Of a DNA stretch of 27,847 nt, positions 3,527 through 25,190 are shown piece by piece. The notes below the pieces were generated by a model. That model had not been told where the DNA came from and searched no databases. It saw only the letters and a list, made by a program, of their open reading frames with translations. Source of the stretch: a virus; IMG/VR virus record IMGVR_UViG_3300043425_000922, positions 1 to 27,847 of that record; one strand, given 5' to 3'. A program made the position numbers and the translations under genes. The first letter of the stretch is position 1. Every line of letters begins with the position of its first letter.

Positions 3527-3907
3527 ATGTTTAAGTTCAGTGCAAAAAGCATCAGGAATCTCGCAGGTGTGCATCCTGACTTGCAACTTGTGATGTATCA
3601 CGCAATCGTAAATAGTCCTCTGGACTTCTCAATCACTGAGGGGCGTCGCACAATGGATCGGCAAAAAGAGCTGATCAATGCTGGCGCATCCATGACTATC
3701 AATTCACGCCATCTGACTGGCCATGCTGTTGATGTGGCCGTGTTCATTGGCCGGGAAGTGCGCTGGGACTGGCCTCTTTACGATCGACTGGCTGAGCATA
3801 TCAAGGCAACTGCTCAGAAGTTGGGAATTCCAATCGAATGGGGCGGAGATTGGAAACGGTTCAAAGATGGCCCTCATTATCAACTTCCTTGGGAAAGGTA
3901 TCCATGA
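3527..3907 (+). CDS. Endolysin, M15-type L-alanyl-D-glutamate peptidase
   Basis: This 126-residue protein matches the single-domain peptidases of the T5 endolysin/VanY (M15) type that cut the L-Ala-D-Glu bond in peptidoglycan stem peptides. The zinc ligands and catalytic residue are all in place: H62 and D69 in SRHLTGHAVDV, and D114 and H117 in KDGPHYQLPW. The EWGGDW block at 104-109 is also typical. There is no signal peptide and no cell-wall-binding domain, so export would need a holin. An AGAGGT Shine-Dalgarno site precedes the ATG. The gene overlaps the holin-like gene by ATGA, forming a two-gene lysis cassette inside the structural operon. Confidence 0.93.
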   Translation: MFKFSAKSIRNLAGVHPDLQLVMYHAIVNSPLDFSITEGRRTMDRQKELINAGASMTINSRHLTGHAVDVAVFIGREVRWDWPLYDRLAEHIKATAQKLGIPIEWGGDWKRFKDGPHYQLPWERYP

Positions 3908-4074
3908 ACGCGACTATTGTCACTGCTGTTGTGCGCCATGTGTTGACTGCTGTTGGCGGAGGCCTTGCAGTTTCTTGGGGCATTGACGGTGCAGCTTGGG
4001 AAGGCATTGTTGGGGCACTTGCAACTCTGGCTGGCTTGGGCTGGTCTATTCTTGACAAGCGGCGTAACGCCTAA
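3904..4074 (+). CDS. Holin-like small membrane protein
   Basis: The ATG at 3904 overlaps the endolysin stop (ATGA) and has an AAAGG six bases upstream, so I take it as the start although the frame is open further upstream. The 56-residue product has two hydrophobic segments, about residues 4-24 and 33-50, separated by a short loop (GIDGAAWEG) and ending in a basic tail DKRRNA. Two membrane helices with a positively charged C-terminus next to an endolysin is the class II-like holin layout. The function is inferred from topology and position; no sequence family is claimed. No separate spanin gene was found nearby. Confidence 0.78.
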   Translation: MNATIVTAVVRHVLTAVGGGLAVSWGIDGAAWEGIVGALATLAGLGWSILDKRRNA

Positions 4075-4101
4075 GTTTGTCACGCCTCGTAAGAGGATTA
4101 G

Positions 4102-4154
4102 CGTCTGCTGAAGTTTCTGGCCGTGGCTAGAATATTTTCAGTAGACGTTTTTTT
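4102..4154 (+). terminator. Intrinsic terminator after the lysis genes
   Basis: CGTCTGCTGAA (4102-4112) pairs with TTCAGTAGACG (4137-4147) with one G-T pair, and an inner TCTGGC/GGCTAGA helix (4116-4131) fills most of the loop. Seven Ts follow at 4148-4154. It separates the lysis pair from the internal virion protein genes and probably lowers, rather than abolishes, downstream transcription, since I see no convincing promoter between it and 4172. Confidence 0.85.
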
Positions 4155-4171
4155 GCGCGGAGAAATAAATC

Positions 4172-5107
4172 ATGGCAACTGCTGCAAACCAGAAAGTTCC
4201 TCAAAGTTCTGGCTCTGATATTGCTGGAATCACCCAACTTGTTAGTTTGCTGGGAGGTCAGCGTGGCACTACCACGACGACTACTAATCCGGGTGATATA
4301 GCTGCACTGCAAGATGCTTTGGGGCAACTCAAAGCTGCAGATTATACTGCCATGTTGGAAGGCATCTTCCGACAAGCTGGCGCACAAATTCCTGGATTGC
4401 GCAATGCCTACACATCTTCTATTGGTGCCCGAGGCCGCAATAATTCTGGGGTAGAGTCGGCAATGGCACAGCTGTTGAAGGCCACTACTCTACAGGCACA
4501 AGAGAAGATTGCAGCTCAGCAACTGGCAAATCAGCAAACACAAGTGCAAGCTGGTAATGCTATTGCCAGTGCCACCAAAGGCACGCAGACTACGCAAGCT
4601 ACAAAAAGTGGACTTGATCTCGGCCGTGCCGCCGCACTGCTGGCGCTTTGGCAAGGCATTGGCCAACTTACTGGGGGCAAAAAGCTCACTGATATGTTGC
4701 CCAGCATGACTGGTGGGGCGGCTGGGGCTGGCGTGACTAGTACTGCTCCTGCGATTGCTGCACCTGCAGGCACTGTTATTCCTTCGCCTGCGCAGACTGT
4801 AGAACCAATGTCAGCCGCTCCAGTGACTAGCGGAGGTAATGCTATTGGAGATGTACTTTCCAATGCATTGAAAGCCATGGGAAATATTGTTGCATATGGT
4901 AGCACTACTCCTCCAATGATTGCGGCTCCTGGGGCAGCTTCTGAGCCTGGAATGTCACTAGACCCTAATGCAAATATGTTGGGGCTAGACTGGGATACCT
5001 TGTTGATGGGATCTAGCCCTCAGCAAAGTACTGCTATTTCCCCTAGTATGCCTATGCCTACAATAGATTGGAATCGTCCTTCCTTTGACATTGCTTACAG
5101 GGACTAA
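4172..5107 (+). CDS. Probable internal virion (ejection) protein, 311 aa
   Basis: The ATG has a clear GGAG upstream. The 311-residue product is rich in Ala, Gly, Thr and Gln. A helical region with likely coiled coil spans about residues 45-145 (repeated Gln/Ala-rich heptads around TTLQAQEKIAAQQLANQQTQ), followed by a low-complexity Ala/Pro/Thr region at 180-235. No enzymatic motif is visible. It is the first of four consecutive genes of increasing size between lysis genes and the end of the late operon, an arrangement typical of podoviral internal core or ejection proteins that leave the capsid with the DNA. The assignment rests on this context and composition. Confidence 0.65.
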   Translation: MATAANQKVPQSSGSDIAGITQLVSLLGGQRGTTTTTTNPGDIAALQDALGQLKAADYTAMLEGIFRQAGAQIPGLRNAYTSSIGARGRNNSGVESAMAQLLKATTLQAQEKIAAQQLANQQTQVQAGNAIASATKGTQTTQATKSGLDLGRAAALLALWQGIGQLTGGKKLTDMLPSMTGGAAGAGVTSTAPAIAAPAGTVIPSPAQTVEPMSAAPVTSGGNAIGDVLSNALKAMGNIVAYGSTTPPMIAAPGAASEPGMSLDPNANMLGLDWDTLLMGSSPQQSTAISPSMPMPTIDWNRPSFDIAYRD

Positions 5108-5109
5108 TC

Positions 5110-6225
5110 ATGGCCACTTCATTCGACATTGATCCGCGGATGGTTGGGGCTAGGCGCACGTTTATCCCCACTGACTACTCTCCTACTGCCCAACTTGGTA
5201 CTGCTGCGCTGGCAGACTCTGATGTCTTGGCACAGCTTATTGCAGGATTGCAATCATTTTATAATCCTTCCAGTGCTGGTGGCGGCCAAGGAGAGCCATC
5301 AATTATGGACGTGTTGAATCAAAACCAAGCACAAGGGCAGGTCAGTGTTGGTGATGGTGTGCAGGATAATCCTGGAGGCATGACTGTTGCGCCTGGCACA
5401 GCAACTGTTGATCCTGGCCTAGTTAGCACTCTCGGCAATATTATGAGTGCCGCTGGCACTTTGTCTAATTCCCCGACTACTGCGTCAGCAGGCAGTCTTC
5501 TTGGCTTGGCAGGGCCACTGAGTCAACAAAGTCCTGCTGACGCAGTGCAGACTTTTGGAACTATTGGAGCTGGAATTGCTGGGGCCAACCCGCTGGCAGT
5601 CAGTGGCATCAATGCGCTGATTGATATGATGCAGGATCCTGTGCCTGCCACTCCAGCAGATATTGCAGGAAAGCTCACAAACATTGCTTTGAGTGCTACG
5701 CCTCTGGGCATTGTCAATAGTATTGCTGGCATGTTGTTTGGCAAGAATGCTGGCAATGTTGTCAAGGGGGCACTAACGCCTGTGTCTGACATCAGTATTT
5801 CTGACGCACTTGCAAAGCAAGCCAATCAGGAAGCTGAGGCAAAGAACATTGATCCACTTGAAGCACTGCTGAGTCTTAATGAAGCATTTGGTACTGCACC
5901 TGCTGGAGTGAGTGGCCGTACTGCAGAGGCTGATGTTTCTACTATTGGCATGGATATGTTTGGTCCTAATCTTTCTATGGGACCATCTCCGAATGAGGCG
6001 TCTATTGCATCTGGTAGCTCTCCTAGTCTTGATGTCTCAGGCGGATCTGCAGATTTGATGGGTGCCGCTGCTGATGCTATTGCTGGGGCTCTGATGGATG
6101 CCATGAGTGCGGCTGGAGGGTCTGGGGATTTGAACACTGGAGACTCTAGTGGGTCTGGCGGAGACTCAGGCTCTGGAGGAGATTCTGGATCTGGTGTAGC
6201 TGGTGATGGGCTTGGGCTCTGGTAA
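5110..6225 (+). CDS. Probable internal virion protein, Gly/Ala-rich, 371 aa
   Basis: It starts 2 bases after the previous stop. The 371-residue product is dominated by Ala, Gly, Ser, Asp and small hydrophobic residues with several weakly amphipathic or hydrophobic stretches (about 140-165 and 185-215) that could insert in membranes. The C-terminus carries a short imperfect repeat of Gly-Ser-Gly-Gly-Asp units (about residues 345-362). Such composition is common in podoviral ejection proteins. No catalytic motif was seen. The GGAC before the ATG is only a moderate ribosome site, so coupling with the upstream gene is likely. Confidence 0.62.
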   Translation: MATSFDIDPRMVGARRTFIPTDYSPTAQLGTAALADSDVLAQLIAGLQSFYNPSSAGGGQGEPSIMDVLNQNQAQGQVSVGDGVQDNPGGMTVAPGTATVDPGLVSTLGNIMSAAGTLSNSPTTASAGSLLGLAGPLSQQSPADAVQTFGTIGAGIAGANPLAVSGINALIDMMQDPVPATPADIAGKLTNIALSATPLGIVNSIAGMLFGKNAGNVVKGALTPVSDISISDALAKQANQEAEAKNIDPLEALLSLNEAFGTAPAGVSGRTAEADVSTIGMDMFGPNLSMGPSPNEASIASGSSPSLDVSGGSADLMGAAADAIAGALMDAMSAAGGSGDLNTGDSSGSGGDSGSGGDSGSGVAGDGLGLW

Positions 6226-8103: not shown

Positions 8104-11100
8104 ATGGCATTTGAGACTCCGCAATATCATCCCTTTGTGATGGCCGCTGATACCACTGACTATCAGGCCAACACGCTGACTCGCATCACTGAGGGATTTA
8201 CAAAGGGACTTCCTGCTGCTGCAGCCTCTGGGGCGCTGAGCATTGCTAACACTGTCATTGACTATGGTAATTTCTTCGGCATCACAGACAAGTCTCAGCT
8301 GGATATTGAGCAGCAGATCCGGCGCTATGGCGGCAATGCCATGGGAGATTATTATGTGGAAAACAAAGAAGCCATTGATGTCGTAGGTTTTGTTGGCACG
8401 TCTCTGATTCCTGGAAGCATTGGCATCAAGGGATTGCAGCTGGCCCGCAGTGGTAATACTCTTGGTAACTTTGGCAAGTTTCTGGCATTGCCTGGCACTC
8501 GCAAGAATGAGTACATGGCCAAAGCCTTGCAAGAAATGGCAGTAGAAGGTGGCGCCATCAAGTCTGTGCTCAGTGCCAATCAGCGTAATAGGCTGCTCTG
8601 GGAAACTGCGGATCAGACCCTGACTGCTACAGCTTTTGAACTTGGCGTAGTGGGGCTAATGAATGATAGTCCTATTTTTGACAATGCCTCGGCAACTGAC
8701 TTTGCCTGGAACATTGCACTAGGCGCTGGCATTGGTGGAGCGATTGGCGGAACATTTGGCAGTTTTGCTGCCCGAGGTATTCTTAAGTCTGCACAAGCTG
8801 AAGTGCAGGCACAGATGCGACTTGTTGACGTCATCACGGATCCCAGCAAACTTGGCATGACCAAGGGCACGGATGCGCTGTTGCTGTCTGAAAGCATCCT
8901 GAATCTGCCTGACACGTTCACCACTACTCCGTTCAAGTACAAGATCACGCAGCCTGATGGCAAAGTTGTGACTGAGACTATTGACTTGGCCACTGGCACT
9001 GCACTGCAGACTGCCAAGGAAAAGGCAGAACGCCTTGGCTATGACCAGCTCAAGTTCAAGTTCAATGAGATTGCTGCTGGTGACGAAGTCATTGGTCAGA
9101 GTTTCTTTGAGGCACTGCAGCGCGGCGTGGTTGCAGCTAAGGAGTCTGGCCTATCTTCCACTGAAACGCTGCAACGGCTGCATGGATACCTCAATCTGCT
9201 GGAGACTGCAAGGGCAATTGATCCAGAGAAGTTGGCACTGGAGTCTCGCAAATTCTACGTGATCATTCGTCCCGAAGCACTGCCCAAGGGGCCTAAGACT
9301 CTCAATGATATGTTCTCCTTGAAGCGACTCAAGGGAGACAAAGGGCAGGAAGCAACAAGCAAGCAGGCATACTATCTGTCTGAAGGCGTGACTGCGGATG
9401 ATATCAATGTTGTTGACTTCTTGCAGATGGGCGAGAAGAATGTCAATGACATCTTCAGGAAGAATCCTGGGACTGACGCTGTGCTGTTGCCTGATGGCAC
9501 ACTGCGTATCAATCGCAAGTCTGAAAAGATTCTGCGCTTCCGTGAGAAGCCTACCAATGTTCGCATGCTCCTGGATCTTGAGGAGTTGTCGCTCTCTCCG
9601 GAAGCTGTGCTGACGTTCGGAGACATTGTAACCAAGGGAAGTTTCAAAGCAACGATTGATGCAGCTTATGTTGGGCGCCGAGGTTTTGCTCAGGTGCCAT
9701 CAAAAGCTATCAACATTCTTGAAGATCCGATGCAAGCTGGTGCGCGTTATGCGTGGGCCAGCAATCTAAGTCCTTCTGATTTCAAGGCAGTTGTCAAAAG
9801 CACACTTGACACCAATGATCTGCCTATGGTTGATAGGCTGCTGGAACTCATTGCAGAAAAGAGTGTCAGTGAGCCATACTTGCGCAGCCTGAAGTTTATT
9901 GACAATGGCATTGAAAAGAGTTTCGATGACTTTGTGGACCTGCGGTTGCTGTCCAGTCAAAAGCGCCTGGAACTTCTGGAACAGCAACTCAACGACATTC
10001 CTCCCGGCTCCACTATTCCTAACTCCCATGCTATCGCAGCACATCTGAACACGGATCGCCTGTGGGTTGAGGATGCCATTAGCCGTGGCTTCACGCCTCC
10101 AAAGGAGAACACTCCTGGCCGCGTTCTTCGCACCAAGGATTCCTTGTTGCCGAGAACCATTCAGCTGGAATGGAACTTCTCGCCTGTATCTTCTGGCAAG
10201 GCAAACTATCTGTTGCCTGAAGAAGCATACAACATGAATATGGGTCCCAATCATTTGATGACCAAGGAGCTGACACGACAGTATCAACTGGAGATTGCAC
10301 GCAAGACTAACATCACTGCAGCTGACTCTGTGCTGTCTGCAGATGCTGCACTTGTGCCACATGAGAGTGAGTTTGTCGGCTCTGGTAACAAGTTCACCAA
10401 GAAGCTGAGCAAAACTAGCAGTCTTGAGGGTGCTGGTGCGACTCTGTTTGGTGCCAGCAATGCAGGATATGGGGATAAAGCTAAGCTCTTTGTGCAGGAG
10501 CTTGGCAAGAATGTGGCACTCATTAGTCAGCGTTGGCGAGATGCCACAATTGAGTCACTGTCTCCGTATGTCAATGCACTGCGAGACAATCAACGTGCAT
10601 CTGCAGAGCTTGGCGTGTTGACTACTGCACTTCGCAAGTCTGAATTCCGCTATGTGTTTGACCCGTCTGATCCCAGCTCTATGCGGATCATTTCTACGGA
10701 AGCTGCAAAGCTGGCACAGAAGCTGAATGATGACGTAGATCAGGCACTGCTGGCACTTGGAGGAAGTGCTAAGAGCCCGCACAGTTTTGAGCTCAAGAAC
10801 ATGGAGGTCAGAGATTTTCTGAAGGCCAGCACTGCCCGAAACGAAAGTCGCATGGGTAAGTTTACTACTCTGTACAATGCTGCAGGACTGGTAAAGCACT
10901 CTGACTATCGTGGTGTTATCTATGCACCCCCGGTCAACACTGTGCGGTACCCATATCATGCGTTTGTCAAGACCAAGGAGAAGCTGGGGCTTGGCACTGA
11001 TACTTCCATGATTGTTGCACGCAGTGAGGAACAGCTGCGGAAGCTGGCTGCAGAAGTCAGTGATGACTATGACGTGTTTTTCAAGGCAGATACGGATAAC

Positions 11101-13251
11101 TATTTTAAGGCCAAGGGGGAGTATGACTATCAGAATACTCTGAATGAGGCCTCTGTAAACAGTGACCTTGCTCGCCGCGGTGTCCTGGCTGACTTCTTCC
11201 CGGAGACGCGGCTTGAGAACATCATGGATGACTGGCTTGGCTGGCACGCTAAGCAAGAGGAGAAGCTGGTTCGTACTGCTGTGCAGACCAAGAATCGTGA
11301 GTTCTTCTCTGAGATGGAATTGCTGAGCAAGCAATATCGTTTGGAGTCTGAGTCCGTCACTCGTGGTCTTGGATCTCGCTTCCGTGCAAAGGTCGCTGAT
11401 CCGTTCGGTGATTATATTAAGACTGCACTGAATCTGTCCAAGCAGCAAGAGTTTCCGTTGCTGGACTCTTTGAATGAGTTTGTAGACAAGGTAGGCATCA
11501 AGGCTGGTGAAGCTATCAACACAGCTTTCTTCCAAGCCAAGAATGATTTGTTGCCCTGGCAAGAGGCTAATAAGATCATTGACCAGTATGGTCTGCCGAA
11601 AGCGTACACAAACATTGATACTTATCTGGAGGCCAATCAGCGAGTTCCCAAGAATGTGATTCGTGAGTTCTTCCAGAAGGCCAACATGGCGCTGGCTACA
11701 ACCACGCTACGCTTGGACTTCTTTAACTCTCTGATCAACATTATTTCTACGCCTATCATGCTGGCCACTGAGATGTCCAGCGTACGGCGGATGATGGCAG
11801 AGACTCCAGAACTGGCTGGCAAACTTTCTGAGCTTACTACTCTCAAAGTGCCTGGCCGGGATTATCGAGTCCCGACGACTACCAAGTTGCTTGCGGATTC
11901 CATTGCTAACTTCTTTGGCCCAGAGAAGACTGCACTGATTGAGCGGTACAAGGATATTGGTGCGATCAAAGAGATCAGCACTCTGTATCACGACATGGTG
12001 GATGATCTTGCCTATCGTCCCAACATTGCACCAAAGGAGTGGGTTGAGCGGGCAAACAAGGGGATTGAGACTGCTGCAAAGCTGGCAGGTAATAACTTCT
12101 CTGAAGACTTCACTCGATTTGTGTCAGCTGATGTAATGCGGCAAATGAGCGAGCCGCTTGTGCAAGCTGGCCGCATGAGTGTGAAGGAGCAGAATGCGTA
12201 CATCAGCACATTTGTGAACAGGACGCAAGGTAACTATGTTACCAGTCAGCGGCCCATTGTGTTCCAAGGCACGACGGGCGCTGCAGTCTCACTGTTCCAA
12301 ACGTATGCATTCAACGTTCTTCAACAGCTGCATCGTCACATGCAAGCTGGGGACAAGAAGACTCTTGCTATCTTTGGTGGGATGCAGGCAAGTATCTTTG
12401 GCTTGAACGGCTTGCCGTTCTTTGATGCAGCAAACACTTATATTCTTGGCCAGTGGCTTGCAGCCAATCCGCAACACAAGGATGTGTACAGCATTCTGCC
12501 GAGTTTCAATAAAGAGCTTGGTGATTGGATGCTGTATGGTACAGCTTCTGCATTCCCATTGTTCAGTGGCTCATTCCCTGCACTGTTCACACGGGGGGAC
12601 ATCAATCCTCGTCATGTGACTATTCTGCCCACCAACATTGTTGATGTGCCTGCAGTCAGTGCAAGCATCAAACTTGTAGACAATCTCTATGAGTTTGGCC
12701 GCAACATTGCTGGCGGTGCAGATATGTCCAATGCATTCCTGCGTGCAGTAGAGCATCAAGGATGGAACCGGCCACTTGCAGGGTTTGCACAAGTTCTGGC
12801 AGGACGCAGCACTACAAGCACAGGTAGTTTGATCTCAGCTGCAAATGAGTTTGAGACTACTTCTCTGCTTGCTGCTACTACTGACAGAATTGTCAACTAC
12901 GGCGGTGTTACCAGGTTGATGGGCAGCCGGCCGATGGATGAAGCTGTTGCGCTGCAAGCTCTGTATCGGGAGAAGCGATATGAGGCTATGGACAAGGCTC
13001 GTATCGAGCGTCTTGGTGAAGTTGTAAAGAGCAAACTGTACAATAATGAAGTTCCGACTGATGAGGAATATCAGGACTTCATGCAGAGATATGCTCGAAG
13101 TGGTGGACGCGCTGAGACATTTAATCAAGCGTATCTGCGCTGGACCAAAGATGCTAACCAAAGCGTAGTGAATCAAATGCTACGCAAGCATGAGAACCCA
13201 TTCAGCCAAAAGCTGTTTGAGATCATGGGCGGTGAGCCACTGTCTGAGTAA
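8104..13251 (+). CDS. Giant internal virion (DNA-ejection) protein, 1715 aa
   Basis: This is the largest gene of the window, with an AAGGAAA ribosome site. The product is mainly helical. Hydrophobic, Gly/Ala-rich segments lie near residues 199-232, 1200-1225 and 1389-1445 and may contact or cross membranes. The region near residue 1000-1070 contains the charged block DYQNTLNEASVNSDLARRG, and the segment near 1380 (TSQRPIVFQGTTGAAVSLFQ) resembles conserved stretches I associate with very large podoviral inner virion proteins. Size, last position in the late operon and lack of capsid or tail motifs support an ejection role similar in kind to T7 gp16 or the ejection proteins of BPP-1-like phages. 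I see no convincing transglycosylase active site. The function is inferred. Confidence 0.72.
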   Translation: MAFETPQYHPFVMAADTTDYQANTLTRITEGFTKGLPAAAASGALSIANTVIDYGNFFGITDKSQLDIEQQIRRYGGNAMGDYYVENKEAIDVVGFVGTSLIPGSIGIKGLQLARSGNTLGNFGKFLALPGTRKNEYMAKALQEMAVEGGAIKSVLSANQRNRLLWETADQTLTATAFELGVVGLMNDSPIFDNASATDFAWNIALGAGIGGAIGGTFGSFAARGILKSAQAEVQAQMRLVDVITDPSKLGMTKGTDALLLSESILNLPDTFTTTPFKYKITQPDGKVVTETIDLATGTALQTAKEKAERLGYDQLKFKFNEIAAGDEVIGQSFFEALQRGVVAAKESGLSSTETLQRLHGYLNLLETARAIDPEKLALESRKFYVIIRPEALPKGPKTLNDMFSLKRLKGDKGQEATSKQAYYLSEGVTADDINVVDFLQMGEKNVNDIFRKNPGTDAVLLPDGTLRINRKSEKILRFREKPTNVRMLLDLEELSLSPEAVLTFGDIVTKGSFKATIDAAYVGRRGFAQVPSKAINILEDPMQAGARYAWASNLSPSDFKAVVKSTLDTNDLPMVDRLLELIAEKSVSEPYLRSLKFIDNGIEKSFDDFVDLRLLSSQKRLELLEQQLNDIPPGSTIPNSHAIAAHLNTDRLWVEDAISRGFTPPKENTPGRVLRTKDSLLPRTIQLEWNFSPVSSGKANYLLPEEAYNMNMGPNHLMTKELTRQYQLEIARKTNITAADSVLSADAALVPHESEFVGSGNKFTKKLSKTSSLEGAGATLFGASNAGYGDKAKLFVQELGKNVALISQRWRDATIESLSPYVNALRDNQRASAELGVLTTALRKSEFRYVFDPSDPSSMRIISTEAAKLAQKLNDDVDQALLALGGSAKSPHSFELKNMEVRDFLKASTARNESRMGKFTTLYNAAGLVKHSDYRGVIYAPPVNTVRYPYHAFVKTKEKLGLGTDTSMIVARSEEQLRKLAAEVSDDYDVFFKADTDNYFKAKGEYDYQNTLNEASVNSDLARRGVLADFFPETRLENIMDDWLGWHAKQEEKLVRTAVQTKNREFFSEMELLSKQYRLESESVTRGLGSRFRAKVADPFGDYIKTALNLSKQQEFPLLDSLNEFVDKVGIKAGEAINTAFFQAKNDLLPWQEANKIIDQYGLPKAYTNIDTYLEANQRVPKNVIREFFQKANMALATTTLRLDFFNSLINIISTPIMLATEMSSVRRMMAETPELAGKLSELTTLKVPGRDYRVPTTTKLLADSIANFFGPEKTALIERYKDIGAIKEISTLYHDMVDDLAYRPNIAPKEWVERANKGIETAAKLAGNNFSEDFTRFVSADVMRQMSEPLVQAGRMSVKEQNAYISTFVNRTQGNYVTSQRPIVFQGTTGAAVSLFQTYAFNVLQQLHRHMQAGDKKTLAIFGGMQASIFGLNGLPFFDAANTYILGQWLAANPQHKDVYSILPSFNKELGDWMLYGTASAFPLFSGSFPALFTRGDINPRHVTILPTNIVDVPAVSASIKLVDNLYEFGRNIAGGADMSNAFLRAVEHQGWNRPLAGFAQVLAGRSTTSTGSLISAANEFETTSLLAATTDRIVNYGGVTRLMGSRPMDEAVALQALYREKRYEAMDKARIERLGEVVKSKLYNNEVPTDEEYQDFMQRYARSGGRAETFNQAYLRWTKDANQSVVNQMLRKHENPFSQKLFEIMGGEPLSE

Positions 13252-19492: not shown

Positions 19493-19503
19493 AGTCTTTT
19501 CCT

Positions 19504-19722
19504 TCACAGTTTGTTTTCATCTAGCTTGTGATCTCCGCACCAGTCGCTAGAAAACACGGCCGGAAACCCCGACATTGTCGGTGCGTGTCTGCGGCAGCGT
19601 CCAAGATTGCCACGTTCTGCAGGCTGCGTCTCGGTATACTTTTCAACAAACCACATGCAAGTGGCGCACTTCATGCCAGCACTACGATGTTTCCATGGGT
19701 CTTGATTGAGATTCATAACCAT
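19504..19722 (-). CDS. Small Cys-rich, probable zinc-binding protein
   Basis: The 72-residue protein has the pattern CATC near residue 19, GRCRRHAP near 41-48, and DWCGDHKLDE near the end. The spacing of three cysteine clusters with His neighbours suggests a small zinc-binding fold. Similar short proteins with PTxxGxPxVxxxDWCGxHK occur in phages and prophages of Proteobacteria; their function is unknown to me. The ATG at 19722 or the one at 19716 may be used; neither has a strong ribosome site. A sigma-70-like promoter lies just upstream, so it is the first gene of a transcript leading into the SSB-like gene. Confidence 0.75.
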   Translation of the reverse strand: MVMNLNQDPWKHRSAGMKCATCMWFVEKYTETQPAERGNLGRCRRHAPTMSGFPAVFSSDWCGDHKLDENKL

Positions 19723-19760
19723 TCCAAATGACAGAGGATTTTACAAAGCAAGGGAAGATC

Positions 19761-19789
19761 ACTGTAGCAGCGTTCACTGCAAATGTCAA
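19761..19789 (-). promoter_or_regulatory. Sigma-70-like promoter before the Cys-rich gene
   Basis: On the minus strand TTGACA (19789-19784) is followed after exactly 17 bases by TACAGT (19766-19761), which matches TATAAT at four of six positions. The -35 overlaps the stop of the ATPase gene. It would start transcription near 19754 and drive the genes at 19722-18665. Host RNA polymerase use is implied. Confidence 0.65.
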
Positions 19790-20598
19790 CCCCTGCGGAA
19801 CAGACTTATCAGCGACAGTTCGCCTCCTTTCTTCTCATCAAGATCAATCGCCAGCCTTGATCCTGTAATGATTGTCGGGCTGTAAGTGCTGGAACTGAAT
19901 GCCCGATGTTGCTTATTGACAATGCTTGCATGCACCACAGTGTCAAAGTATTTTGCACTGGTCAGAGAGAAGTTGCGAGTGCCAGCTACAGGCACGATCT
20001 TCTCACGGCCTTCCAGACTTTCTGACTCAAGCTCATGGCTAATGGCAATGATGTTGATGTCTGCCACTTGAATAAAGCTGAGCACTTGTTCCATCAGTGC
20101 GCCTTGCACACCGTAGTCCACAAATGTCTTCTTGTATTCCTCGCCGCCGGGCTTCTGCAGTTCTTTGAGAATGCCCTTGTTCATGGCACTGTTGGCCAGC
20201 TGGCTCAGACTGTCAATGACAAGAATATCATTGTCTCCGAGCTTTGCCAAATCAACCTCTGAGAACTTGGCAGTGGTATCTTTTGCACACAGCGGGCAAG
20301 AGACTTTGCCATGAGATGTGCAGATACGCTTCATGCCCCCACGAAGAACTTCACGCACAGTGTCAATGGCGATAGGATAAAGCCTGTGATCTGGCACACT
20401 GATGACGTTGACATTCTTGCGAAACTCTGGTGCAAGAATTGCAGGATTGAGCAGTGTTTTGATCCCGTTCTCAAGGTCAAACCAGTGCAGCGTGAAATGC
20501 TCAGCAAGTTTGCCGACAAGCGCAGTCTTGCCAGACTTCGGTGCGCCATAGACAAGGACCTTGCTTTTGGCACTGTTGGAAAAGTCATTCAGATTCAT
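19786..20598 (-). CDS. Sak4-like RecA-fold ATPase (AAA_24 type)
   Basis: I choose the ATG at 20598 (AAGGAGA seven bases upstream) rather than the GTG at 20604. The 270-residue protein has Walker A GAPKSGKT (residues 18-25), Walker B DILVIDSLSQL (D124-D129 area) and a sensor-like IIAISHELES. It matches the short phage ATPases of the Sak4 group, which are single-strand annealing or strand-exchange recombinases known to work with SSB. A small Cys/His knuckle, C93-x2-H96-x4-C101-x2-C104, is inserted before Walker B, and may bind zinc. Nuclease and SSB-like genes nearby support a recombination module for replication-linked repair. Confidence 0.85.
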   Translation of the reverse strand: MNLNDFSNSAKSKVLVYGAPKSGKTALVGKLAEHFTLHWFDLENGIKTLLNPAILAPEFRKNVNVISVPDHRLYPIAIDTVREVLRGGMKRICTSHGKVSCPLCAKDTTAKFSEVDLAKLGDNDILVIDSLSQLANSAMNKGILKELQKPGGEEYKKTFVDYGVQGALMEQVLSFIQVADINIIAISHELESESLEGREKIVPVAGTRNFSLTSAKYFDTVVHASIVNKQHRAFSSSTYSPTIITGSRLAIDLDEKKGGELSLISLFRRG

Positions 20599-20622
20599 GC
20601 TCACTCTCCTTGGATAGATTGT

Positions 20623-21207
20623 TTAGATGTCATCAGTTGCTGGTGGGATAGATTTCGTTGTACTGTAAATCTCCTTCATGTTATTGATCTGCCTTTGCAT
20701 GAATGCCATGTTTCGTGCAATGAGTTCTGGGCCTACTTCAATACTGGCCATTGCATGATAGGCATACATATCATCCAGCTCATCAATATCCTTGTGTATC
20801 AGGATTGCAAACTGCTGATTGGCCGTGTCCACATTTGGCGCATTCTTGTGCAGTTCTTCCTGGTGATTCCGAATGGCAATCATTGGAGATGTTTCCAGCA
20901 GCCCTGCAATTGCCAAGGATACTTTGCGTGTGGAAACTTTCTCAGTGCACAGCACAACGACAGTGTAAAACAGTGAGTCGATGTAAGTATCGCTGGCACC
21001 AATGATCGGAGATGTGCAGACACGAATGTCCATCTGAAGCTCAGGGCATAGAAAGCGCACAGCTGGAAAGCCTGGCACTATACCAAAGTCAATTGAATGG
21101 TAAACATAATTGACCTTGGGCAGTTGAGAAGACTTGATGCCTTCTGGAATATTTTGGTTAAACTGCTGGACTAGCTTGTCGAAGATAGGGTCAGGAGTTT
21201 GTGACAT
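20623..21207 (-). CDS. Unknown protein inside the recombination module, 194 aa
   Basis: The frame is open further upstream, but that part lies antisense-free inside the nuclease gene and is rich in Ser, Arg and Leu, so I take the ATG at 21207, which overlaps the nuclease end by 17 bases. The 194-residue product has a beta-rich middle (about 30-105) and a helical, acidic C-terminal third (about 120-185, DIDELDDMYAYHAMAS). No motif was recognised. Its position between the PD-(D/E)XK nuclease and the Sak4-like ATPase suggests it acts with them. The ribosome site is weak, so coupling to nuclease translation is likely. Confidence 0.75.
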   Translation of the reverse strand: MSQTPDPIFDKLVQQFNQNIPEGIKSSQLPKVNYVYHSIDFGIVPGFPAVRFLCPELQMDIRVCTSPIIGASDTYIDSLFYTVVVLCTEKVSTRKVSLAIAGLLETSPMIAIRNHQEELHKNAPNVDTANQQFAILIHKDIDELDDMYAYHAMASIEVGPELIARNMAFMQRQINNMKEIYSTTKSIPPATDDI

Positions 21208-22219
21208 TTTGCAATCTTTCTTTCTGGCGGTGAACGATCTCTGACAGTGTTGTGGGGAAGTCAATTGGCTCAATAGCATCAATGTCTTCCAGCGATTTGA
21301 TTTCTGGAAGGTCTGAAAACTCCTTGCCAAAGACAGTCTTGGCTGCAAGGTCACAGTTCTCATAATACTCACAGCGCTTCATGAAGTTGAAGCATGACCT
21401 GCCGCGCTTGGGAAAGAAGTTGAGTGCGCTGTAGTGATCGACTTGCTGGTGAATGAGCAGCTGATCTTGAATCCACTCTGCTTTCTTGTTGGCATTCTTG
21501 ACAAAGGGGAACTGCATCCACTGCTGTGCAGTTGCACTGTAAACTGTGTACAGCACTTCATACTCTGAGCCGCCAAGCATGTCAACAACCACAGCATAGC
21601 TGAGTGCTTGGTCACTGTTAGCATAGAGCACAGGATCTACATTGGTGAAGCCTGTAGTCTTGTTCTCTTTGACTAGATAGCGCCCTGTGATTTTGTGCTG
21701 CAACACTTCGTCAATGTGGCCACTGTAGAAGTGACCATCCTCAAAGTCTACAGCAATCGTAGCTTCGATCTTGACAGTCTCGTAGTCTGAAAGCATGGTC
21801 TCAGATTGATAGAAGTTCTCGTAGGAATACAATGCCCAGACTGCTTCGTAGAAACTCTTGCCTGCCGCGCGTGAAGTCTTGCGTTCTTCAAGAAAGAGAT
21901 CAATGTCCCAGGCAAGAAAGGCTGCCCAGATAGATTGACGCAAGTCTTGAGTCTGATCGTAGACTGCAACACCTGCACCAACAGCATGGCCAAATGCAAA
22001 TGTTGGAGAGTTCATGCGCTGGCTAGTGCCAGCTTCAGCTTGCAGCTTCTTGATCTGATACTTGCGCGGGCAGCTGTGCAGAATATCAGACGTGGAATAC
22101 GTCATCAGATTTCTGTGTGCAGTCAGCTGGTCATAATGATTCTTGGTGACCTTGACTGCTGCACCAAACCCTGGTGTTGCATCTGTGACGTTTGTTTGGA
22201 GAATGTCATCCATGTTCAT
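21191..22219 (-). CDS. PD-(D/E)XK nuclease with four-cysteine (Cas4/AddB-like) site
   Basis: I choose the ATG at 22219 (AAGGA seven bases upstream), giving 342 residues. The RecB/Cas4-type nuclease core is clear: H78 in FGHAVGAG, D170 in GHIDEV, E185 and K187 in VKENK, and the QxxxY motif in DQALSY (about 203-208). Four cysteines, C50 in SCPRKY and C276, C283, C289 near the C-terminus, match the layout of iron-sulfur nucleases of the Cas4/AddB class, in which one N-terminal and three C-terminal cysteines staple the fold. Exonuclease action on DNA ends to supply single strands for the Sak4-like ATPase is the likely job. The iron-sulfur cluster is inferred, not seen. Confidence 0.9.
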   Translation of the reverse strand: MNMDDILQTNVTDATPGFGAAVKVTKNHYDQLTAHRNLMTYSTSDILHSCPRKYQIKKLQAEAGTSQRMNSPTFAFGHAVGAGVAVYDQTQDLRQSIWAAFLAWDIDLFLEERKTSRAAGKSFYEAVWALYSYENFYQSETMLSDYETVKIEATIAVDFEDGHFYSGHIDEVLQHKITGRYLVKENKTTGFTNVDPVLYANSDQALSYAVVVDMLGGSEYEVLYTVYSATAQQWMQFPFVKNANKKAEWIQDQLLIHQQVDHYSALNFFPKRGRSCFNFMKRCEYYENCDLAAKTVFGKEFSDLPEIKSLEDIDAIEPIDFPTTLSEIVHRQKERLQNVTNS

Positions 22220-22397
22220 GGCATGTTCCTTCCTGTTTCTGCTCCATCCTTGCCCGCGCCTTTGCATACGCTTCTCTCATCGCGTCACTCATGCGCTTCA
22301 TGTTAGCCCGCACAGTTCCCCACGCCCTACGCCGCCTTGCGGCGTCGATGTACCAAGGGTACAGGCGGTCTTTGATCCTGCGGATGCGGCGTCTCAT
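22206..22397 (-). CDS. Tiny Arg-rich protein in the small-gene cassette
   Basis: The ATG at 22397 overlaps the upstream stop (ATGA) and has AAGGGGG upstream, so I take it over longer options. The 63-residue product is very basic in its first 35 residues (MRRRIRRIKDR, AARRRRAW) and helical throughout, ending in an EGTCHEHG tail. A small nucleic-acid-binding peptide is possible; no family was recognised. Its last 14 bases overlap the nuclease start. It lies in a GC-rich cassette between two copies of a 20-bp repeat. Confidence 0.65.
   Translation of the reverse strand: MRRRIRRIKDRLYPWYIDAARRRRAWGTVRANMKRMSDAMREAYAKARARMEQKQEGTCHEHG
22215..22234 (-). repeat. Direct repeat copy A (nuclease ribosome site and start)
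   Basis: TTCATGGCATGTTCCTTCCT on the plus strand is identical to 22931-22950. Read on the minus strand it holds AGGAAGGA, the ATG at 22219 of the nuclease gene and an upstream ATG in another frame. Similarity continues weakly for about eight bases beyond the exact match. Confidence 0.95.
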
Positions 22398-22738
22398 TTG
22401 TTCCCCCTTGCACGGATGGCTGCGGTGAAGTAGTCGCCCCACACTTGACACTGTCCGCTAAAGGTCTCCTTCGCTTTGTCTTCACACACCTTCGCACACG
22501 CCTCACGCTCGGCCTCGACCTCGATCTTGATCTCGCGCTCGTAGCTCTGCTGCTGCAGGGCCAGGGTGTGCTCGTAGTTCTTGCGCTCGGCAGCGGCCCC
22601 TGCGGCGTAGGCCAAGACGGCAAAGCGTTTAAGTGCATAGGTGGACATGGCTCCGTCATTGGTGGCTCCCCAAAGGTCAGCACCAATTTCTGACCACCCA
22701 GCCTCCCGCGCCAGCTTGAGGATGTCTTCTCGGGTCAT
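22394..22738 (-). CDS. Hypothetical helical protein, Burkholderiales phage type
   Basis: The ATG at 22738 overlaps the upstream stop (ATGA) and has AAGGAG seven bases before it, so the longer frame from 22825 is not used. The 114-residue product starts MTREDILKLAREAGW, followed by an Ala-rich helix (RFAVLAYAAGAAAER), a charged coiled-coil-like region and EREACAKVCEDKAKET, then ends AAIRARGNK. This layout recurs in small early genes of Burkholderiales phages in my memory and often contains the EREACAKVC segment. Function is unknown. A hand count of plus-strand bases 22501-22560 gives 39 of 60 G or C, against 27 of 60 at 21241-21300. Confidence 0.78.
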   Translation of the reverse strand: MTREDILKLAREAGWSEIGADLWGATNDGAMSTYALKRFAVLAYAAGAAAERKNYEHTLALQQQSYEREIKIEVEAEREACAKVCEDKAKETFSGQCQVWGDYFTAAIRARGNK

Positions 22739-22935
22739 GTCCTGCTCCTTGCATTCCAAACAATCGCGCCAACGCTCCACAACACAGATGCGGCAAACGC
22801 ACAGGCCGAAGCCCAAAACACCCACTCATATTCTGGCTTGCGTGTGCCTACAATCTCGGTGATGCACTGCACGACAAACATGATGGCGGTGATATTGACC
22901 GCTGCACGCGGCCAGAAATAGTCGATTTTTTTCAT
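22735..22935 (-). CDS. Small two-span membrane protein
   Basis: The 66-residue product has two hydrophobic segments at about 11-28 and 38-60, with the basic start MKKIDYFWPR and a basic end NARSRT, suggesting a hairpin across the inner membrane. The ATG at 22935 overlaps the upstream stop (ATGA), and its ribosome site AGGAAGGA lies in copy B of the 20-bp repeat. No family was recognised. It is the first of the three genes between the repeats. Confidence 0.72.
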   Translation of the reverse strand: MKKIDYFWPRAAVNITAIMFVVQCITEIVGTRKPEYEWVFWASACAFAASVLWSVGAIVWNARSRT

Positions 22936-22950
22936 GGCATGTTCCTTCCT
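22931..22950 (-). repeat. Direct repeat copy B (ribosome site and start of membrane protein gene)
   Basis: This copy is identical to 22215-22234. On the minus strand it encodes the last residues (GRNMP and stop) of the upstream gene and contains the ribosome site and ATG of the next gene. The two copies lie 716 bases apart in the same orientation. Confidence 0.95.
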
Positions 22951-23276
22951 ATTTCAGCCGCAGCCCTGACGATGGCGCGGCGGGTGGCGGCGTAGGGGTC
23001 GTCGTTATGCGGTTCTGTAACGCATTCCAAAAGGCGGCCTATGGCCAAATTTCCAACAACAATGGTGTCGCCGTTGAATGAATCTGCTTCAACTTGGAGA
23101 TTTAACGCCACCGCCAACCGCAGCGCATCGCCATCGTCGGTGAGGGGGTTCCATTTATCCCAATATCCTGGGAGCATGTGCGGGCGGTGCTCGTAGTAAT
23201 CTTGGCACTCAGCAATCCATCGCACATCAATCCCCGCCGCCTTTACAGCAAGTTCTAACATTTCTCTGTCTGTCAT
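22932..23276 (-). CDS. Hypothetical phage protein ending in ATRRAIVRAAAEIG
   Basis: The 114-residue product has a helical start (MTDREMLELAVKAAGID), a Trp/Tyr/Pro middle (MLPGYWDKWNPLTDDGDAL) and a C-terminal DPYAATRRAIVRAAAEIG helix. The GDALRLAVAL and ATRRAIVRAAAEIG segments occur in a small phage family I have seen in Burkholderiales and Pseudomonas phages, without known function. Both ends overlap neighbours by ATGA, so it is embedded in a coupled run of small genes. Its C-terminal codons are part of repeat copy B. Confidence 0.78.
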   Translation of the reverse strand: MTDREMLELAVKAAGIDVRWIAECQDYYEHRPHMLPGYWDKWNPLTDDGDALRLAVALNLQVEADSFNGDTIVVGNLAIGRLLECVTEPHNDDPYAATRRAIVRAAAEIGRNMP

Positions 23277-25135: not shown

Positions 25136-25190
25136 TTTTTTGCTTTGCTTTCACTCTAGTACAGACACAGATAAAAAACAAAGCAAAAAA
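25136..25190. repeat. 12-bp perfect inverted repeat in a leader
   Basis: TTTTTTGCTTTG (25136-25147) and CAAAGCAAAAAA (25179-25190) are exact reverse complements with 31 bases between them. The right arm overlaps the T-tract of the terminator at 25185-25212. The element could be an operator or allow alternative RNA folding. Confidence 0.75.

Follow-up and report, generated by a model that had tools for sequence, protein, structure and literature searches.

The window analysed here is a whole IMG/VR virus record (IMGVR_UViG_3300043425_000922; 27,847 nucleotides), and the genes of the locus lie on its minus strand. Read along that strand, P0007 (23439–24140; 233 aa) and a membrane-type peptide, P0006 (23273–23425; 50 aa), are followed by four small genes: P0001 (22932–23276; 114 aa), P0002 (22735–22935; 66 aa, with two hydrophobic segments), P0003 (22394–22738; 114 aa, MTREDILKLAREAGW... 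type), and the basic protein P0004 (22206–22397; 63 aa). They lead to a 342-aa nuclease (21191–22219) with a profile match to the PHROG 1218 exonuclease. Farther downstream lie a DNA polymerase, a primase/helicase, and a Sak4-like ssDNA annealing protein of PHROG 124 (19786–20604; E 2.5e-14), the candidate recombinase of this phage. Two further features were noted elsewhere in the window: a 1715-aa ORF (8104–13251), which matches PHROG 16165 in its C-terminal part only and lies near a switch in gene direction, and a 16-nt inverted repeat with poly-T/poly-A arms (TTTTTTGCTTTGCTTT; 25136–25190), possibly a two-way terminator.

P0001 belongs to PHROG 5086, which it matches over its full length (E 4.6e-32, residues 1–113 of 114). 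At the DNA level, the gene consists of three conserved islands separated by two variable linkers. DNA matches among isolated phages were confined to the middle island, in four records only, and the virus is therefore a phage without a close isolate. The protein is predicted to adopt an alpha/beta fold (pLDDT 88), whose PDB matches are weak (4qyb, a Burkholderia protein, and 1r7l, a Bacillus phage protein; E about 0.007–0.05); no function is therefore claimed. Neither P0001 nor any one of 62 relatives matched a Pfam family. Genes of the type found in the block are shared by phages of Burkholderiales and Pseudomonadales, which agrees with the link to Burkholderiales phages drawn in the original prediction.

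Two exact copies of a 20-mer (AGGAAGGAACATGCCATGAA) occur in the same orientation, as had been stated before, both on the minus strand, at 22931–22950 (copy A) and 22215–22234 (copy B). The 20-mer is the only direct repeat of such kind in the window: no further copy was found there with up to three mismatches allowed, only one other 16-mer is repeated besides those within the 20-mer, and 100 shuffles yielded none. Beyond the 20-mer, the likeness of the two copies extends to 38 nt at 84%. Both contain a purine-rich Shine–Dalgarno-like run, together with an ATG at which an ORF begins in an ATGA overlap; the ATG of copy A, which also ends P0001, opens the 66-aa ORF at 22935, and that of copy B opens the nuclease at 22219. 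The earlier description of each copy as a ribosome site with a start codon is thus correct in its layout, and the use of both starts is probable from their sequence. The 696 bases between the copies hold three ORFs and are GC-rich (58.2%, versus 47.4% in the nuclease and 48.6% in the whole window), as had been noted for a supposed three-gene cassette. Gene 22932–23276, outside the repeat pair, is likewise GC-rich (54.2%), and the foreign block should therefore be counted as four genes, not three. Their GC contents range from 52 to 60%, against 47% in the nuclease and 37% in P0006 on the opposite side.

The surroundings of the block were compared with those of relatives, most of which are metagenome assemblies. 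P0007 and the nuclease are kept as the fixed left and right walls, and the interval between them ranges from 9 to 1219 bp. The region before the nuclease is a hypervariable accessory-gene slot, and the original prediction of a natural site for the swapping of accessory genes proved right in this respect. The closest relatives, L003 and L004 (99.9% identical to each other), have flanks 97–98% identical to those of the window at the nucleotide level (97.2% on the nuclease side in both, 98.5% on the P0007 side in L004) and lack P0001, P0002, P0003, and P0004. The missing block (22220–23276; 1,057 bp) has CATGA at either side, and in its absence the end of P0006 starts the nuclease through an ATGA joint, with no 20-mer present. 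The cut falls precisely at the ATGA, so that the expected seamless exchange at start sites is found in nature; the unit exchanged comprises all four genes and is not bounded by the 20-mers. L004 carries an additional small gene ahead of P0006.

Other empty and occupied pairs are found among the relatives. L127 and L128, whose sequences around the slot agree at 99.4% (over 6.7 kb) and 97.4%, differ by 281 bp that contain one PHROG 5086 gene; it sits precisely at the start of the nuclease, with AATCATGA repeats on either side. With flanks 88–95% identical, the slot is empty in L013, holds one PHROG 5086 gene in L012, and holds other genes in L009–L011; with flanks 98.7–99.0% identical, it is nearly empty in L005 and contains about 1 kb in L007, part of which is a PHROG 5086 gene adjoining the nuclease. 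A PHROG 5086 gene lies directly on the nuclease in four groups of relatives (L006, L007, L012, and L128/L129), with differing alleles. This is the arrangement predicted for homologues of gene 22932–23276. P0001 itself was not found in IMG/VR at 60% identity or more, and no relative was found with P0001 itself (at least 90%) joined to the nuclease. P0002–P0004 are present elsewhere in other orders (L135; L088), and a loss of the three genes by recombination between the two 20-mers was observed in none of the relatives. The start-site slot of the original prediction is right in outline, with a different unit, a different boundary, and a repeat of another nature.

Two side observations concern the same relatives. 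L003 and L004 also lack a 72-aa ORF (19504–19722) within about 240 bp at window positions 19495–19736, replaced by about 15 unrelated bases; this indel does not lie at an ATGA joint, and therefore not all gene gain follows the ATGA route. A small slot gene (M..W.KGPPPSIGWWPAS ... EWT.RP..WP.R..T), seen in L006 (1644–1877), L007 (2370–2600), and L009 (2190–2423), apparently resembles PHROG 5086 in that its ends are conserved and its middle varies.

The repeat is not primarily a start-site target; it corresponds to the 3′ end, conserved across the family, of a PHROG 5086 gene (…EIGRNM-x-stop). Copy A is the native 3′ end of P0001 (GRNMP-stop), which also supplies the Shine–Dalgarno sequence and ATGA start of the next ORF. 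AGGAAGGA and a stop/start overlap of the form ATGA lie in the 3′ end of PHROG 5086 genes, which would therefore start the next gene. Coupling was defined as an overlap of the ATGA/GTGA type with a following ORF of 25 aa or more; by this measure, 57 of 63 non-redundant PHROG 5086 genes qualify, and their next ORFs come from 28 families. The result was replicated in bacterial genomes, mostly of Burkholderiales and Pseudomonadales, where 50 of 71 PHROG 5086 loci are coupled. The Arg codon of GRNM, which forms the Shine–Dalgarno sequence, is AGG in 51 of 54 cases, and other conserved Arg columns use mostly CGC or CGG. In isolate genomes, the same PHROG 5086 gene is followed by different next genes (L185/L187, L100/L193, L252/L231). 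The searches made in the literature on boundary sequences and on mosaicism within genes returned no description of the island structure or coupling of PHROG 5086.

Copy B, which forms the Shine–Dalgarno sequence and ATGA start for the nuclease, appears to be the remnant, reduced to the tail, of a second PHROG 5086 gene formerly adjacent to it. This copy is out of frame with PHROG 5086 and sits inside the 3′ end of P0004. Homologues of P0004 match its first ~50 residues only and end before the repeat; the tail relic and the start of the nuclease gene would therefore account for the last ~11 residues of P0004. P0004 is followed within a few bases by the start of a PHROG 5086 gene in L042 and L046, and such a gene runs at its very end directly into the nuclease in L006 and L007. 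The L006 junction reads GCAGAAATAGGAAGGAACATGACATGAACATGG and copy B reads GCAGAAACAGGAAGGAACATGCCATGAACATGG; of the 23 bases preceding the ATG, 21 match, and the likeness continues to about 22246, 27 nt ahead of the nuclease ATG. The 20-mer with one base left free (AGGAAGGAACATGNCATGAA) has one other match in 2.9 million IMG/VR contigs, namely this L006 junction between PHROG 5086 and the nuclease. L006 contains the 20-mer core once.

The simplest history would begin with the order P0004–PHROG 5086 gene–nuclease, from which the middle gene was deleted except for its tail; the intact order was found in no contig. Because the relic measures only about 24–27 nt, its origin from a gene body is something that we infer. 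A tail-profile scan, for which the short relic of the window falls below the sensitivity and which may miss other short relics, returned two further tails outside family ORFs (L103, L065). L103 also has two tandem PHROG 5086 ORFs (3883–4662), and its out-of-frame tail before another gene (5451–5506) is a second possible relic.

Within PHROG 5086, the median pairwise nucleotide identity of the islands is 0.76 at the start, 0.84 in the middle, and 0.76–0.78 at the end, and that of the linkers is 0.51–0.54, the level of shuffled sequence. When linkers at 80% identity or more were taken as alike and those below 62% as unrelated, one linker was alike and the other unrelated in 35 of 64 informative pairs, compared to 3 of 65 in the nuclease control. 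Seven of the 14 repeated linker-A alleles pair with more than one linker-B allele, and linker-B allele 0 was recorded in combination with three linker-A alleles and with six next genes. The linkers, and likewise the next gene, assort independently, and for the linkers this indicates recombination at the islands. Abrupt switches at island edges are visible in four alignments (L053/L080, L096/L105, L068/L115, L064/L089); in L053/L080, an identical start is followed by an unrelated linker A and then by about 160 nearly identical bases. As in homology-driven mosaicism, the switches between sequences that are otherwise unrelated fall within short stretches of conserved homology. The intragenic switches come from metagenome contigs, though from several samples, and the isolates gave swaps of the next gene only.

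We consider it probable that the slot, the PHROG 5086 tail as a joint, the relic, and recombination at the islands belong to one process. Genes would dock between P0007 and the nuclease at ATGA stop/start overlaps, by which the neighbours would remain in frame and translated. A PHROG 5086 gene is often the last one, probably because its 3′ end (GGRAGGAACATGNNATGA) serves at once as protein C-terminus, ribosome site, and start for any next gene. The tail and the two other islands would act as short homology, at which recombination could exchange linkers, gene bodies, and the genes downstream. The direct repeat would have arisen when a second PHROG 5086 gene, located between P0004 and the nuclease, lost its body but not its tail. 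A phage annealase, Sak4-like in this virus, may carry out the recombination: short imperfect homologies of island size fit phage annealing recombinases (PMC3945230), and the window encodes a Sak4-like one. Among ten partial PHROG 5086 contigs, nine had no Sak4-like match at E≤0.001 and the tenth weak ones only, these carriers being mostly incomplete.

The exchange originally proposed would instead move a three-gene cassette in and out by homologous recombination between the 20-mers, from an ancestor in which this very P0001 was joined to the nuclease. It accounts for the exactness of the copies and the correct frame of the product, its architecture exists with other alleles in L006, L007, L012, and L128, and the rarer CCA codon precedes the stop in both copies, where L006 and L007 have ACA. 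However, the nearest relatives lack four genes and retain no 20-mer, the IMG/VR search returned no P0001 at the identity given above, and the three genes form no fixed unit elsewhere. Moreover, 20 bp is shorter than the minimal pairing length of 23–27 bp for Red-beta (PMC3945230), and we regard this history as unlikely. Assembly poses another problem, as assemblers could have joined unrelated sequences at short islands and so produced false mosaics and false slot states; the loci are mostly short-read metagenome contigs and the islands measure about 45–63 nt. Yet haplotypes recur across samples, L128 and L129 are alike in the gene and the next gene, L003 and L004 agree with each other almost entirely, linker combination A1/B0 occurs in four contigs and A3/B0 in two, and within the isolate pairs the next gene differs although the gene itself is the same. 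Such an artefact is highly improbable.

Separate origins of the two copies, each selected for a good Shine–Dalgarno sequence and ATG, would suit a place where such sequences are expected at coupled starts and where other genes of the operon are also ATGA-coupled. The identity exceeds these elements, however, both in the comparison of copy B with L006 and in the 38-nt likeness of the copies, and the pattern recurs otherwise only at the homologous L006 junction; the identity is too long for convergence on the ribosome site alone, which appears extremely improbable. Two further candidates were rejected. A moron, an autonomous accessory gene with its own promoter and terminator, finds no intergenic room between ATGA overlaps, and a scan gave one promoter-like site (1.1 expected by chance), on the opposite strand, and three weak terminator-like sites (1.0 expected). 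For a transposon or integron cassette, no inverted repeat pair bounds the block and no Pfam/PHROG recombinase occurs among the four genes.

The modular theory of phage evolution involves conserved gene-boundary sequences. Such boundaries, mentioned in PMC3974807, resemble the joint preferred here in that conserved border DNA lets different genes join undamaged, but the border here is a protein-coding 3′ end containing the ribosome site and start of the next gene. In lambdoid phages, De Paepe et al. (2014; PMC3945230) described mosaicism by relaxed homologous recombination with Rad52-like enzymes. Exchange at short imperfect homologies is common to both cases, and a phage-encoded recombinase, the likely actor there, may act here as well; the homologies here are, however, islands within one small gene family, and the candidate enzyme is Sak4-like. 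The SAS of cluster K mycobacteriophages, a 13-bp consensus (GGGATAGGAGCCC) just upstream of the start codons of many genes, with many copies per genome (PMC3203893), is likewise a short repeated sequence ahead of different genes. Unlike SAS, the 20-mer has two copies only, another sequence, and a position inside a coding 3′ end, and it is not a member of that group.

The PHROG 5086 family, whose tail constitutes the repeat, is more interesting than the repeat itself. Tentatively, and with the odds rather against it, its genes may be dedicated recombination and translation adaptors of Burkholderiales and Pseudomonadales phages, in which the three islands would be kept at the nucleotide level because annealases swap interiors and neighbours there, the next gene always being given a working start. 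It has long been asked how phages exchange genes without damage to the neighbouring ones, and the usual answer is random joining together with selection. A concrete and widespread joint that combines a protein end, a ribosome site, and a homology anchor, with natural empty and occupied pairs, allows this question to be tested in Burkholderiales and Pseudomonas phages.
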